Shown here in pieces: positions 4,228-37,240 of a stretch of 39,494 nucleotides of DNA. The stretch is from an uncultured Candidatus Berkelbacteria bacterium (lineage in GTDB: Bacteria > Patescibacteriota > UBA1384 > CAILIB01): the NCBI GenBank assembly GCA_903834195.1, contig CAILIB010000024.1:1-39494 (forward strand), in the 5' to 3' direction. The notes under the pieces were generated by a model that saw nothing but the letters and a program-made list of their open reading frames with translations, had not been told where the DNA came from and did not search any database. How positions within the stretch are numbered: the first letter of the stretch is position 1; the number at the start of each line of letters is the position of its first letter. The translations under genes were made by a program, and so were the position numbers.

Positions 4228-4321
4228 GTGTGTGAGTGTATATGGCAAGATTCGCAGATTGTTGGTGAGGTGTCTAATATTGGGCGGGGCGGAGTAGGTG
4301 CGTATATGTTCGCTAAATATA

Positions 4322-4476
4322 GCGGGACTCGATTATAGTTCGCTGCGCGAACGGGCAAGCATGCACATGGTACTCTCGTCCCTCCTGATTCCACTAAAAT
4401 ATGCCCCAATGATTACCTCTGCAGCACTATTCTATTCCAGTGCGAAGCCAGTAATCATTGGGGCATATTTTAGTGG
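4322..4476 (-). repeat. tRNA-anchored palindromic element at tRNA-Leu(UAA) (copy E1)
   Basis: Directly behind the tRNA is a perfect 26-bp inverted repeat (arms 4391-4416 and 4451-4476; 34-nt apical part), the inner arm edge coinciding with the encoded CCA. The apical part contains GCACT/AGTGC pairing and the loop ATTCTATTCC, nearly the same as at tRNA-Leu(CAG). Beyond the palindrome is a decayed inverted T-arm (GGTACTCTCGTCCC on plus). At the far end an 11-nt direct copy of the tRNA 3' region (GCGGGACTCGA, 4322-4332) matches 4485-4495. The insert between is shorter than in other copies, with a GTTCGC/GCGAAC pair. The outer hairpin could also terminate tRNA transcription. Confidence 0.7.
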
Positions 4477-9693: not shown

Positions 9694-9770
9694 CGATCTG
9701 TAGCTCAGGTGGTTAGAGCAACGCTCTTATAAGGCGTGGGTCCTGGGTTCAAGTCCCAGCAGATCGACCA
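9694..9770 (+). tRNA. tRNA-Ile(UAU), CCA encoded
   Basis: The anticodon stem ACGCT/GGCGT closes loop CTTATAA, so the anticodon is UAU (codon AUA). The T-arm is CTGGG-TTCAAGT-CCCAG and the acceptor CGATCTG/CAGATCG, giving an unusual C1-G72 end for an elongator isoleucine tRNA. Discriminator A and CCA are encoded. Most bacteria read AUA with a lysidine-modified CAU tRNA instead. Confidence 0.9.
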
Positions 9771-9977
9771 AATTAAAAGTACTCTTTGGAGTACTTTTAA
9801 TTTTGCTAAAGAGATGGGACTTGAACAGGAAAGGGGTCGGGAAAACAATTGTTTTCCCGTGAAGGAGAGCAGCGAGTGAAATGAGTGATGAGAACCGTGG
9901 GTTCTCATCTGTGCTCAGGTGAAAGTCCCAGCAGATCGACCAAATTAAAAGTACTCTTTGGAGTACTTTTAATTTTG
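9751..9977 (+). repeat. tRNA-anchored palindromic element at tRNA-Ile (copy E2), bounded by a 55-bp direct repeat
   Basis: A 55-bp segment (tRNA 3' end, CCA and hairpin) at 9751-9805 is repeated exactly at 9923-9977. Each hairpin is a perfect 15-bp stem (AAATTAAAAGTACTC, loop TTTG). After the first hairpin comes an inverted T-arm copy (GGGACTTGAACAGG, 9816-9829) at the same distance from the stem as the T-arm of the real tRNA (11 nt each side). The 117-nt insert has a palindrome GGGAAAACAATTGTTTTCCC and a hairpin GAGAACC/GGTTCTC. This accounts for most of the space between tRNA-Ile and the next gene. Confidence 0.85.
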
Positions 9978-20347: not shown

Positions 20348-21455
20348 GATCACCCTCTTTGAGACTCTTTGGTTAATGCCAAGTATTGCAGTGGCGTAAG
20401 TCGTTGTCCAGGCTTTCCAAGTGAGCGGTGAACACGCTTGGTGTTGTAGAAGGTCATCCATTCAGAAAGTTCTTTGTTGAAGTCCACTGGATCTCCAGCC
20501 AGACTGGCATAATGCCAGTCAAGAAAACTCTCCTGTATGGTTCGGTTAAACCGTTCAATCCACCCTTGGTATTTTGGTTGTTTCACCCAGTTAAAGAAAT
20601 GAGTGAGCTCTGTTTTTTCTGCTGCCTCTCGAAACTCTTTCATGAATTCAGGTCCATTGTCTGTTTGGATGTGTGTCACCTCAAATGGTGCAGCCCTCAA
20701 GAGTTCAGTGAGGAAATCTGCACCATTTCTAGAAGAGGTGGTTTTGTATGTTTTAGAGAAAGCCCAGCGAGACACCAAATCAACTGCTGTGAAGGTATAC
20801 CGTCGCTGTCCCAGGGTGTTAATGAGTACTCCATCCACTTGCAGCAAGTCCCCAGGTTTTTCGGGGATATACCCTCCACGCCGGAGTTTCTTCTTTGGAG
20901 TGAGGTGTTTCTCCGTGAGCTTCCCTGTTTTTCCATGGAGACTAAGTTGAGCTCCAGTGGGAAGCTTTCCAGCTTTCTTTAAGTCATCCACAATACGTCC
21001 CACCGTTGCTTCAGCGGGACATGCAATACCCTGAGCTGCACAAAAATCAACAAGGAGTGGGCGTAGCTTTTCCTTGCCGAGCTTTGGGTACTTTGTTCTC
21101 AAACGAATAATCTCAAGTTCAAGGATATAATGCACCACTCGTTTCTGGTATCCATTCCGATGAGCTTGGCTTTTAGGAATGGGATTCTGTTTCCAGCGGA
21201 ACAAGGTGGCTCGTCCCACGCCAAATGCATCCCTGGTTGCCTTAAGGCCGTGTACAGACCAAAAGGTGAGTATCTTCTCTCTTCGTTCAATTTCCTGCTG
21301 CTGTTTGGTATCCATCCTCCTGGGATACCAACTCTGAGCTAATTGCTCAAGGAGCTTCTTTCCGTTAGGTTCAGCGTGTGCTGCACCCCATGCGTTCATC
21401 TGAAACATTTCAACCTGCTATTTGTTCAGACCAAAAGTCTCATATGAGGGTGATC
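20348..21455 (-). mobile_element. IS481-like insertion sequence, copy 1
   Basis: Bounded by imperfect terminal inverted repeats: GATCACCCTCTTTGAGAC on the left and the complement of GATCACCCTCATATGAGAC on the right. It contains one transposase gene, whose TGA stop lies inside the left repeat. I could not identify a confident target-site duplication. It lies between small RNA copy R2 and the tRNA-Val repeat element. Confidence 0.85.
20350..21408 (-). CDS. IS481-like DDE transposase (rve integrase core)
   Basis: 352 aa from the ORF-track start; an internal ATG at 21315 (MDTKQQQEIERREKIL) is an alternative. An N-terminal helix-turn-helix (KATRDAFGVGRATLFRWKQN) is followed by the rve catalytic core with DDE residues in QVDGVLI, IQTDNGPEF and GWIERFNRTIQESF. 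A basic linker (HLTPKKKLRRGGYIPEKPGD) precedes the core. It has the same architecture as the transposase at 35021-36031 but is clearly diverged from it. The frame is intact, so it may be active. Transposition is by DNA cut-and-paste or copy-out, acting on the terminal repeats. Confidence 0.93.
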   Translation of the reverse strand: MFQMNAWGAAHAEPNGKKLLEQLAQSWYPRRMDTKQQQEIERREKILTFWSVHGLKATRDAFGVGRATLFRWKQNPIPKSQAHRNGYQKRVVHYILELEIIRLRTKYPKLGKEKLRPLLVDFCAAQGIACPAEATVGRIVDDLKKAGKLPTGAQLSLHGKTGKLTEKHLTPKKKLRRGGYIPEKPGDLLQVDGVLINTLGQRRYTFTAVDLVSRWAFSKTYKTTSSRNGADFLTELLRAAPFEVTHIQTDNGPEFMKEFREAAEKTELTHFFNWVKQPKYQGWIERFNRTIQESFLDWHYASLAGDPVDFNKELSEWMTFYNTKRVHRSLGKPGQRLTPLQYLALTKESQRG

Positions 21456-21470
21456 TTTTACATAATGTTT

Positions 21471-21659
21471 CCTAGAGGTAGACGCTCACGTTCTTGTTCT
21501 TTCACCACCTTCGGTGATGTGAAGCGCACTAGAAGTGTTGCGCTAACTTCGCTCTTCGCTTCGCGAAGTTCGGTACAGGCGAAGTCGAACCTGGTTCTTA
21601 ATCTCTAAAAGACCACCAAAGAAAAAAGAACACTAGAAGTGTTCTTTTTTCTTTGGTGG
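21471..21659 (-). repeat. tRNA-anchored palindromic element at tRNA-Val (copy E3)
   Basis: In tRNA orientation: a perfect 22-bp hairpin overlapping the tRNA end (arms 21613-21634 and 21638-21659), then an inverted T-arm copy, then GGTTCGA. A structured insert follows: ACTTCGC/GCGAAGT enclosing CTTCGC-GAA-GCGAAG, linker TTAGCGCAACAC, and a second hairpin ending GTGGTGAAAG. The element ends in CCTCTAGG, a copy of the tRNA 3' T-stem (21471-21478). It corresponds part by part to copies E4 and E5. Confidence 0.8.
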
Positions 21660-21914: not shown

Positions 21915-22151
21915 GGAAAGAGGGTGGGACGTTCGCTTCCTTCGGCTTCCGCCACTTCGTGATGTGGAGCGCCTAAGGAGCACTGCACTAACTTCCCTCT
22001 CGCTTCGCGAGCAATGTATTGGGGAAGGCGAACCTGCTTCTCCTCACTCTAGTAGTCAAGTACCAGGTAACAGTGTATTTTCTTTGCCTCCGCAGTACTA
22101 TTCTTTTCCAGTACGAGGACTAGCAAAGAAAAATACACTGTTACCTGGTAC
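21915..22151 (-). repeat. tRNA-anchored palindromic element at tRNA-Leu(CAG) (copy E4)
   Basis: A palindrome with ~28-bp arms and one bulge (22060-22087 and 22123-22151) starts inside the tRNA acceptor. Its 35-nt apical part resembles that of E1: GTACT/AGTAC around ATTCTTTTCC. Then come GGTTCGC and a structured insert (CTTCCC/GGGAAG enclosing CTCGC-GAA-GCGAG, linker TTAGTGCAGTG, hairpin around CCACATCACGAAGTGG, then GCGAAC). It ends in CCTCTTTCC (21915-21923 on plus as GGAAAGAGG), a copy of the tRNA 3' end. The element separates tRNA-Leu from tRNA-Phe. Confidence 0.8.
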
Positions 22152-34588: not shown

Positions 34589-34664
34589 TCCCCGGTAGCT
34601 CAGTGGTAGTAGCGTCTCGCTGTTAACGAGAATGTCGTTGGTTCGAATCCAACCCGGGGAGCCA
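34589..34664 (+). tRNA. tRNA-Asn(GUU), CCA encoded
   Basis: Anticodon loop CTGTTAA gives GUU. T-arm GTTGG-TTCGAAT-CCAAC; acceptor TCCCCGG/CCGGGGA; discriminator G. It anchors the accessory island to its right. The 197-nt gap before it (34392-34588) holds two small hairpins (ACGCTT/AAGCGT and TATTGC/GCAATA) and no gene. Confidence 0.96.
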
Positions 34665-34854
34665 AAAGAAAAGAAGTAGGCGGCTGCCTACTTCTTTTCT
34701 TTTGTTTTACTCGAGAGGATTCGAAACCTGGTTCGACTCTGCCTAAACCTTTTGAGCGAAGCGAAAGCAGAGTTAGTGCAGTGCTTCTTCGCCGCTTCAC
34801 ATCACGAAGTGGTGAAAGGCGGAGAAAGCGAACGTTAGGAAACCCGGGGAGCCA
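34663..34854 (+). repeat. tRNA-anchored palindromic element at tRNA-Asn (copy E5)
   Basis: A perfect 19-bp hairpin (arms 34663-34681 and 34686-34704, loop GGCT) begins inside the CCA. Then comes an inverted T-arm (GGATTCGAAACC) 12 nt from the stem, as in the true tRNA. GGTTCGA and a structured insert follow: ACTCTGC/GCAGAGT enclosing CTTTTG/CGAAAG, linker TTAGTGCAGTG, hairpin GCTTCAC/GTGGTGAAAGGC, closing CGAAC. The element ends in a second tRNA 3' end, AACCCGGGGAGCCA (34841-34854). Confidence 0.85.
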
Positions 34855-34860
34855 CGAATT

Positions 34861-34941
34861 TTCACCACGTTAAACTGGTGATTTTTCATATACTTAAACT
34901 TTTACTAACAGATCAAAAATGGTTCGAATCTAATCGGGATT
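34861..34941 (+). repeat. Island repeat R75, copy A
   Basis: About 75-80 bp conserved with 37131-37211 and more weakly 37656-37730. Order: TCACCA/TGGTGA hairpin around GTTAAAC, a TATACT string, AACAGATCAAAAATGG, and TTCGAATCTAATCGGGA, a decayed copy of the tRNA-Asn T-arm and acceptor. Together with E5 it fills 34665-35020; no gene is seen there. Confidence 0.75.
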
Positions 34942-35001
34942 ATACCTGTAGAACCTGCATTATCAGATGCACTCGTTCAACCACATATGAGACTGTGAAT
35001 A

Positions 35002-36052
35002 CCTAAAAGATCACCCTCATATGGGACAAAATTGGAAGAGATACCTTCATTCAGCGCACCTCTTTCGTGAAGACCTTGCAAACCTCTCAAAGATTGGTAC
35101 AGGTGAAGGTATGCATACTCAACCTGAACGCGAGAAGATCCTCTTGTTTTGGAAAACTCATGGCCTTGCGGCCACCGCTGACGCTTTTCAAGTTTCCCGT
35201 GCAACGCTGTTCCGGTGGGAAAAGAATCCAACTCCACAGAAACGTGTCCGGCACACCCAAGTGCGTAGAGTCATTCCACCACGTATTCGTGCTGAACTCC
35301 TGAGACTTAAACTCCTCCATCCAGAGCTTGGCAAAGGACAACTCCAACCACTTCTCGCACGGTTCTGCAGCCAGGGTGGTATTGGTATTCCGTCTGAAAG
35401 TACCGTTGGGAGGTATCTAGGAGATTTGAGGAAGGAAGGAGTACTTGGGAAGCCAGTGAGGCTTCGCTTCCATGCTCGTACCGGGAAGCTTGTTGAGAAG
35501 CCAATCGAGAGAAAGGTGAAGCTCCGAAGAAACGGGTATGCACCAGGTGTCCCTGGGGATCTCCTGCAAGTTGATACGGTGGTTACCTTCATTAATGGCC
35601 TCAGGCGCTATACCGTGACGGCTATTGATCTGCCCTCCCGCTTCTCCTTTGCCTGGAGCTATACCTCCTTAAGCTCAGCCACCAGTACCGACTTCTTGAG
35701 GAAGCTCACACTAGCTGCTCCATTTCAGATTCACCGTATCCAAACGGACAATGGACTTGAGTTTCATGGCCTCTTTCAAGAGGCACTTCTTAAGAGTGGA
35801 ACCACCCAATTCTTTAACCGGCCAAGAAACCCAAAGCAGAATGCCTTCATTGAACGGTTCAACCGAACCATTCAAGAAGAGTTCCTCTACCGGAACACTG
35901 ATTCTCTAGCTTATGATCTTCCTGAGCACAACCTACGACTCATGGAATACCTCATCTATTACAATGCTGAGCGGCCACATACTGGCCTCAACAAGAAAAC
36001 CCCGCTAGAATATCTCCAATTAACCCCTTAGTCTCAAATAGGGTGGACGAGT
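35002..36052 (+). mobile_element. IS481-like insertion sequence, copy 2
   Basis: The left end GATCACCCTCATATGGGAC matches the ends of copy 1 (20348-21455), and the right end is the complement of GTCCACCCTATTTGAGAC. A partial extra left-end-like string (ACCACATATGAGAC, 34980s) lies just outside. One intact transposase gene is inside. Exact tips are uncertain by a few bases. Confidence 0.75.
35021..36031 (+). CDS. IS481-like DDE transposase, copy 2
   Basis: 336 aa from the track ATG; the internal ATG of MHTQPEREKILLFW aligns better with copy 1. HTH (ATADAFQVSRATLFRWEKN), a basic region, and the rve core with catalytic QVDTVVT, IQTDNGLEF and NAFIERFNRTIQEEF. The protein is recognisably related to, but diverged from, the transposase at 20350, so the two ISs are not recent copies of each other. 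The intact frame suggests possible activity. It lies in the tRNA-Asn island ahead of the metalloprotease gene. Confidence 0.93.
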   Translation: MGQNWKRYLHSAHLFREDLANLSKIGTGEGMHTQPEREKILLFWKTHGLAATADAFQVSRATLFRWEKNPTPQKRVRHTQVRRVIPPRIRAELLRLKLLHPELGKGQLQPLLARFCSQGGIGIPSESTVGRYLGDLRKEGVLGKPVRLRFHARTGKLVEKPIERKVKLRRNGYAPGVPGDLLQVDTVVTFINGLRRYTVTAIDLPSRFSFAWSYTSLSSATSTDFLRKLTLAAPFQIHRIQTDNGLEFHGLFQEALLKSGTTQFFNRPRNPKQNAFIERFNRTIQEEFLYRNTDSLAYDLPEHNLRLMEYLIYYNAERPHTGLNKKTPLEYLQLTP

Positions 36053-36860: not shown

Positions 36861-37126
36861 CAAATAATAAGACCTTACGGCTGTAAGGTCTTATTATTTG
36901 TTTTACTCGAGAGGATTCGAAACCTGGTTCGACTGCGACGAGTGAGTGAGAATAATTGTGTTTACATAATTATTTGAGCGAACGAGGAAGCTGTATTGCG
37001 AAGCAATACTCTGCCTAAACCTTTTGAGCGAAGCGAAAGCAGAGTTAGTGCAGTGCTTCTTCGCCGCTTCACATCAAGAAGTGGTGAAAGGCGGAGAAAG
37101 CGAACGTTAGGAAACCCGGGGAGCCA
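36861..37126 (+). repeat. Second tRNA-Asn-type palindromic element inside the island (copy E6)
   Basis: A hairpin with an 18-bp stem of new sequence but the same GGCT loop (36861-36878/36883-36900), preceded by a GAGCCA tRNA-end remnant. It is followed by the same inverted T-arm and GGTTCGACT as in E5. Then comes an extra ~75 bp containing AATAATT/AATTATT and TATTGCGAAGCAATA hairpins, after which the sequence is almost identical to E5 through to AACCCGGGGAGCCA (37113-37126). No intact tRNA is attached. With R75 copy B it fills 36795-37240. Confidence 0.8.
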
Positions 37127-37130
37127 CGTA

Positions 37131-37211
37131 AAATCATCAGGTTAAACTGGTGATTTTTCGTATACTCAAACTTAAACTAACAGATCAAAAATGGTTCGAA
37201 TCTAATCGGGA
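37131..37211 (+). repeat. Island repeat R75, copy B
   Basis: Near-identical to copy A: TCATCA/TGGTGA hairpin around GTTAAAC, TATACT, and TTCGAATCTAATCGGGA at the end. The pairing is kept although one arm base differs (T-G wobble). Confidence 0.75.
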
Positions 37212-37240
37212 TAAATAGCATAATCTCCACCCAAATCATG

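Follow-up and report, generated by a model that had tools for sequence, protein, structure and literature searches.

A contig of 39,494 nt from an uncultured Candidatus Berkelbacteria bacterium of the Patescibacteria (GenBank CAILIB010000024.1; here, in its entirety, the window) carries behind its tRNA-Ile(TAT) gene a short insert that is, on balance, probably a non-autonomous, non-coding mobile element whose target-complementary segment would serve as a guide and be rewritten at each new site. Elements of this kind measure ~80-130 nt and consist of a segment of ~10-20 nt, the complement of top-strand sequence around the insertion point in the target gene, then one free base and a conserved folded core. 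On either side stands a direct copy of the target, which extends from the insertion point to slightly beyond the end of the gene and thereby rebuilds it, so that the host tRNA or protein stays intact. That these sequences are mobile insertions is well supported, and from their comparison we infer a new class of non-autonomous mobile elements with guide-directed insertion. The tRNA-Ile locus is composed of the following features, where G002 and G003 are relatives and G000 is the genome to which the window belongs (76% complete, 41 tRNAs):

9694..9770, plus strand: tRNA-Ile(TAT), the target gene, recognised by ARAGORN and Rfam
9747..9758, plus strand: target segment GTTCAAGTCCCA within the T-arm, with the insertion point inside it; exact complement of 9815-9826
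9751..9805, plus strand: proximal copy of the duplicated target, from the T-loop through CCA and the terminator hairpin; identical to 9923-9977
9771..9804, plus strand: terminator hairpin with a perfect 15-bp stem and a loop of 4; an equivalent terminator-like hairpin is present in the element-free syntenic locus of G003
9806..9922, plus strand: inserted element, 117 nt, bounded by the two 55-nt direct copies and missing in G003 and G002
9815..9826, plus strand: guide TGGGACTTGAAC, the gene's own T-arm inverted; the same rule holds in 52/80 and 27/41 other copies
9828..9922, plus strand: conserved core of type A (GGAAAGGGGTCGGGAAAAC..GTTTTCCCG..), with a match to covariance model R3 at 9828-9883 (E 9e-12)
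9923..9977, plus strand: distal copy of the duplicated target, identical to 9751-9805

An earlier note, made from the letters of this DNA, had described a T-arm and an inverted T-arm at equal distances from the terminal hairpin, and this arrangement is borne out: the 12-nt exact complementarity of GTTCAAGTCCCA and TGGGACTTGAAC, with the hairpin in between and gaps of 11 + 11 nt, was reached by none of 1000 shuffles of the flanks, and a 9-nt match at tRNA-Asn, with gaps of 12 + 12 nt, was equalled by 1 of 1000. The inverted T-arm had been read as GGGACTTGAACAGG; the copy is real, while the final AGG of that reading lies outside it and consists of the one spacer base that separates guide from core and of the first bases of the core, which begins GGAAAGGGGTCGGG. 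The exact 55-nt direct copy of the tRNA 3' end and terminator had escaped that first reading. As two such copies enclose 117 nt, the inverted T-arm forms the left end of an insert. The proposal that a longer palindrome once included the tRNA 3' half is a fair reading, supported by the inverted sequence that continues through the acceptor strand in loci L188, L190, L222, L254 and L318 (26 nt) and by the divergent acceptor-strand copies at Leu, Val and Gly of G003. The mirrored spacing itself, whose conservation in more copies had been named as the test, recurs to within 1 nt in only 6 of 25 other copies. We also rejected the idea that the hairpin is purely a product of fold-back synthesis: in the freshest copies (the Ile copy of the window, L187, L248 and L250) the direct copy covers the whole hairpin, which is therefore the native terminator there.

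Empty sites were found in both relatives. The gene set tRNA-Leu(GAG), comM and tRNA-Ile(TAT) is common to the window, G003 and G002, and in the latter two tRNA-Ile is followed by a hairpin only; inverted copy, core and second copy are all missing. Likewise, the syntenic Val-Phe-Leu(CAG)-Cys-Gly cluster holds an element behind Leu(CAG) in the window and none in G003.

The relation between guide and target was examined over many copies. Complementarity of at least 10 nt to the gene directly upstream is found just before the core in 52 of 80 copies of type A (0.5% in shuffles). It lies at a fixed distance from the core, and the match usually stops one base short of it. A set of 41 copies collected with a core model that contains no guide gave a similar picture, with at least 10 nt of guide match to the upstream gene in 27 (0.6% in shuffles), a tRNA in front of 32 and a direct copy behind the core in 29. 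Across 45 loci, guide and proximal target agree at 91-100% for bases 1-10. Between the proximal and distal copies, agreement is 91-100% over bases 9-20 but only 33-67% over bases 1-5, which places the insertion junction inside the guide's target. In fresh copies the direct repeat extends from the junction almost to the guide (for example 79/81, 68/70, 41/42 and 33/34 nt), so the mobile unit comprises guide and core, and the rest is target duplication, 17-80 nt in length. That the complementary segment acts as a guide would account most economically for its fixed position and for the fact that it matches unrelated targets. In place of TCGAAC, the inverted T-loop frequently shows GAGAAC (types B and C in the window's genome, G001 and G003, and some of type A, namely L301 and L304), a recurring double change that would place tandem G-A mismatches at the insertion junction.

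Targets comprise tRNA genes and protein genes. The T-arms of tRNAs are struck at the same bases regardless of the tRNA, and among homologous GTPase genes the same codons are struck, with sites at the AH(V/I)D codons in the starts of typA, lepA and fusA. Further sites, with gene names likewise read from translated flanks, lie at the ends of rpsI, rpmG, rpoD and pgk and at the starts of dinB and rplK. The orientation of the element relative to a protein gene varies, and the direct copy restores the gene end; at typA, lepA and fusA the element stands antisense at the gene start, where the gene's own transcript would not carry it in sense. The 3' ends of rpsI are struck in several unrelated genomes, and at L240 two near-identical type A elements follow rpsI in tandem.

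In the named genome collection, the first 19 bases of the type A core occur without mismatch in at least 113 stretches. Among the 80 matches listed, every title that names a lineage names Patescibacteria (including Moran-, Kaiser-, Colwell-, Jorgensen-, Taylor-, Harrison-, Berkel- and Kazan lineages), several titles saying 'bacterium' only, and 50 of 82 analysed matches sit behind a recognised tRNA, of 32 anticodon types. Core model R3 found the element in 27 of 287 genomes of the phylum, at 1-9 copies each and scattered over many families, a patchy spread that we count in favour of a mobile element. The phages, plasmids and viral contigs searched contained no match, and a phage or plasmid origin was discarded for this reason. 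When the elements of the window and of G001 were searched against the covariance models of Rfam 15, only tRNAs reached the gathering score, and a riboswitch or another known RNA family was accordingly set aside. We found no description of the element in the open literature searched, which does not extend to subscription papers and preprints.

Comparison of cores suggests movement within genomes. Copies at different targets in one genome have a core similarity of 0.773, against 0.655 between genomes (0/5000 permutations), whereas copies at the same tRNA in different genomes show no excess (0.655; p 0.50). Two copies in a single genome, L235 (His) and L254 (Leu), are identical over the compared core stretches and have different guides, each fitting its own tRNA; the two guides share a 13-nt T-arm seed and differ beyond it as their tRNAs do. 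The Asn and Leu copies of G125 (0.94) follow the same pattern. As far as comparison of sequences can tell, the element has spread within a genome and has gained, at the new site, a guide that matches the target there. Under the mechanism we propose, the complementary segment would act as a guide and place the element by base pairing, and the seed common to related T-arms would permit hops between tRNAs. The rest of the guide would be copied from the new target during joining, perhaps by annealing of the element end through the seed and its subsequent extension, and staggered cutting with fill-in would produce the target duplication. The complete scheme, in which an insertion element of ~100 nt rewrites its guide for each target, hops among tRNA genes (through the T-arm seed) and among homologous protein genes, rebuilds the gene end and is driven by an enzyme or by its own RNA, seems plausible to us at a little below an even chance.

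At least three core types are present in the window's genome, where by our count 17 of the 41 tRNAs are followed by an element with hairpin, inverted T-arm, core and direct copy of the tRNA 3' end. Type A begins GGAAAGGGGTCGGGAAAAC, as at tRNA-Ile of the window; type B has the form GGTTCGAC..GTTAGYGCA..GAGCGTC (Asn, Val, Leu); and type C is a short type (Leu-TAA) with several copies in G001. The type B model matched in the window's genome and in G003, and a search of the named genomes for the exact type B pattern gave no match. Type A forms two hairpins, CGGGAAAAC/GTTTTCCCG and one of the type TTGAAACC-GCAA-GGTTTCAA; 92% of cells are paired (shuffles: 89%) and 18 have changed on both sides (shuffles: 6.4), and this structure, backed by the pair counts, replaced the one that RNAalifold itself proposed. 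The first hairpin is near-invariant among 25 sequences, a set that shares a 19-mer by selection; the core model finds G-C versions of it, such as CGGGGAAAC/GTTTCCCCG. Type B cores also fold; 13 of 25 pairs show compensatory changes and G-U pairs are frequent, which points to an RNA of the plus strand. Further core types (GAAGGGTGCGCCCGG..GCACCCAGGTCCGAAGGAG and others) are stacked in series behind tRNA-Tyr and tRNA-Trp at L217 and L175, each stacked element with its own inverted and direct target copy.

Several known systems resemble the element in part. In the omega RNAs of TnpB/IscB of the IS200/IS605 family, a short guide lies beside a conserved scaffold and matches the site of the element. 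The layout of guide and scaffold and the match to the insertion site recur here, with complementarity to the retained target; in contrast, the guide is here an inverted copy of that target, the target duplications are long, the scaffold has no Rfam family and no TnpB-type protein exceeded the cut-off in the window's genome or in 14 other carriers. Group I and II introns also pair an internal segment at the insertion point and use conserved genes and tRNAs as targets, but the core of ~80-130 nt has no Rfam intron match even at E up to 10, many carriers have no reverse transcriptase, and the gene end is duplicated instead of spliced. Miniature inverted-repeat elements (MITEs) and REP/REPIN sequences are likewise short, non-coding, folded, multi-copy and associated with target duplication; here, however, the inverted sequence appears to belong to the target and not to the element, and the duplications vary in length and follow gene ends.

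The guide-directed reading must be weighed against several observations. As the guide fits the restored proximal copy as well, the element must have some way of avoiding self-targeting; for type B, the guide agrees with its own T-arm only in part; and fold-back copying could have produced the complementary stretch as a by-product. No mobilising enzyme was found in the genomes searched: the RVT_1 reverse transcriptase is not in the window's genome at its 76% completeness and is missing from 7 of 14 other carriers, among them G284 with 9 copies, and TnpB-type PF07282 exceeded its cut-off in none of the 15 carriers including the window's genome (IscB itself was not searched). Movement, moreover, was inferred by comparing sequences and not observed. 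With both enzymes missing in many carriers, we rejected a reverse transcriptase or TnpB as universal partner. The loci inspected held no autonomous copy, and larger, coding copies sought in four of the loci were none of them convincing. In a rival account, which we hold to be unlikely but deserving of serious weight, a protein with some preference for T-arms inserts a guide-less core beside conserved sites; fold-back synthesis, copying the target in reverse, joins its left end, and the inverted copy is only a scar. The long inverted copies of L188, L222 and L318, which continue into acceptor and spacer, are what fold-back would yield; at Lys and Val of G001 the left arm is the only part of the proximal hairpin that the distal side resembles; and guides fit the proximal over the distal copy at 74 of 82 differing bases. 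An incidental copy should, however, have varied ends, whereas the inverted copy usually stops at a fixed base, which lies one nucleotide short of the core and several bases past the junction, and the specificity of a single protein does not explain why T-arms and the AH(V/I)D codons of GTPases are struck at homologous bases.

Two further accounts appear far less probable. Integrases that target tRNA genes leave behind a directly repeated tRNA 3' end that reaches from the T-loop to CCA, and the copies described here have the same extent; the inserts could thus be remnants of integrated islands (attL/attR of tyrosine or serine integrases) whose interior was deleted, and some loci do carry cargo between the copies (Fic/Doc) or adjoin a recombinase fragment (tRNA-Gln). 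We nevertheless consider this very improbable, since a single core recurs behind tRNAs of dozens of types and also at protein genes, no integrase lies inside, and the inverted copy that matches the target is absent from att sites; the counts of copies with an inverted copy already weigh against it. The only tyrosine recombinase found in the window's genome resembles the host Xer, and with no suitable integrase, and only 117 nt inserted at tRNA-Ile, the island was rejected. Equally little credence is given to a cis-regulatory RNA switch that would act in read-through transcripts, the inverted T-arm there competing with the fold of the tRNA. The pairing suggested by the earlier note holds as a folding prediction: at tRNA-Ile, the native T-stem has a predicted probability of 0.79 if the transcript stops at the hairpin and 0.00 once it reaches the inverted copy, with mispairing at 0.95, and the core is indeed folded, with compensatory changes and G-U pairs. 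A tRNA-specific switch does not follow, because the same element occurs at protein genes and antisense at gene starts, orthologous tRNA loci are empty, presence is patchy, the spacing is not conserved, and the inverted copy lies beyond the terminator hairpin. The predicted loss of the T-stem would make read-through harmful and the duplicated terminator would make the insertion tolerable; we regard this loss as a probable constraint and not as evidence for a switch.

Further elements of this kind in the window had been overlooked in the first reading. They are listed here with the tRNA-Asn locus:

34589..34664, plus strand: tRNA-Asn(GTT), target gene
34717..34725, plus strand: inverted T-arm copy GGATTCGAA at tRNA-Asn, pairing with 34642-34650
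34730..34836, plus strand: type B core of the first Asn copy (R1 match, 1.5e-20)
34841..34854, plus strand: distal copy of the tRNA-Asn 3' end, AACCCGGGGAGCCA
36861..37140, plus strand: second type B copy, with a hairpin and without a tRNA; core 37002-37108, distal copy AACCCGGGGAGCCA
21481..21653, minus strand: type B element behind tRNA-Val(TAC), core 21481-21591
21915..22145, minus strand: type B element behind tRNA-Leu(CAG), core 21928-22034; the syntenic G003 cluster is the empty site
4321..4473, minus strand: type C element behind tRNA-Leu(TAA), with hairpin, inverted T-arm GGGACGAGA, core GTACCATGTGC.. and distal copy TCGAGTCCCGC; same layout in G001

Directly behind the Val and Asn elements lie IS481-like transposase genes (20350-21408, minus strand; 35021-36031, plus strand) with ends like GATCACCCTCATATG, which look like separate insertions favouring these places. 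Having these ends of their own and being missing from most copies, the transposases were rejected as mobilisers. The segment with the Asn element is duplicated (34690-34946 and 36893-37212) around one IS481-like and one archaemetzincin-like gene; its two hairpins have wholly different stem sequences, both perfectly paired, and an identical GGCT loop. A motif like GTCCTCG..CTGGAATAGAATAG..CTGCGGAGG recurs at the apex of hairpins behind tRNAs for Leu, Ser and Arg, whose perfect stems are unrelated in other respects (22081-22145 and 4391-4476 of the window, both minus strand, and L003, L029, L030, L043 and L045). Behind a tRNA-Leu at L107 (C26:9600-11900), a complete and a partial type B element enclose cargo that includes a Fic/Doc-family protein, so larger composites exist. 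At L108 (C31:10700-16199) the reading frame of a recombinase zinc-ribbon fragment passes through tRNA-Gln on the other strand, and contig C32 carries a type B element with tRNA-Gln as the direct copy.

If this reading is true, the elements would represent an undescribed class of mobile elements across Patescibacteria, among the smallest with a conserved core, and would account for the odd palindromes and partial tRNA copies found behind tRNA genes as well as for the continued function of those tRNAs. A guide that keeps a fixed position beside the core and differs from copy to copy would further point to an insertion machinery that is possibly programmable.
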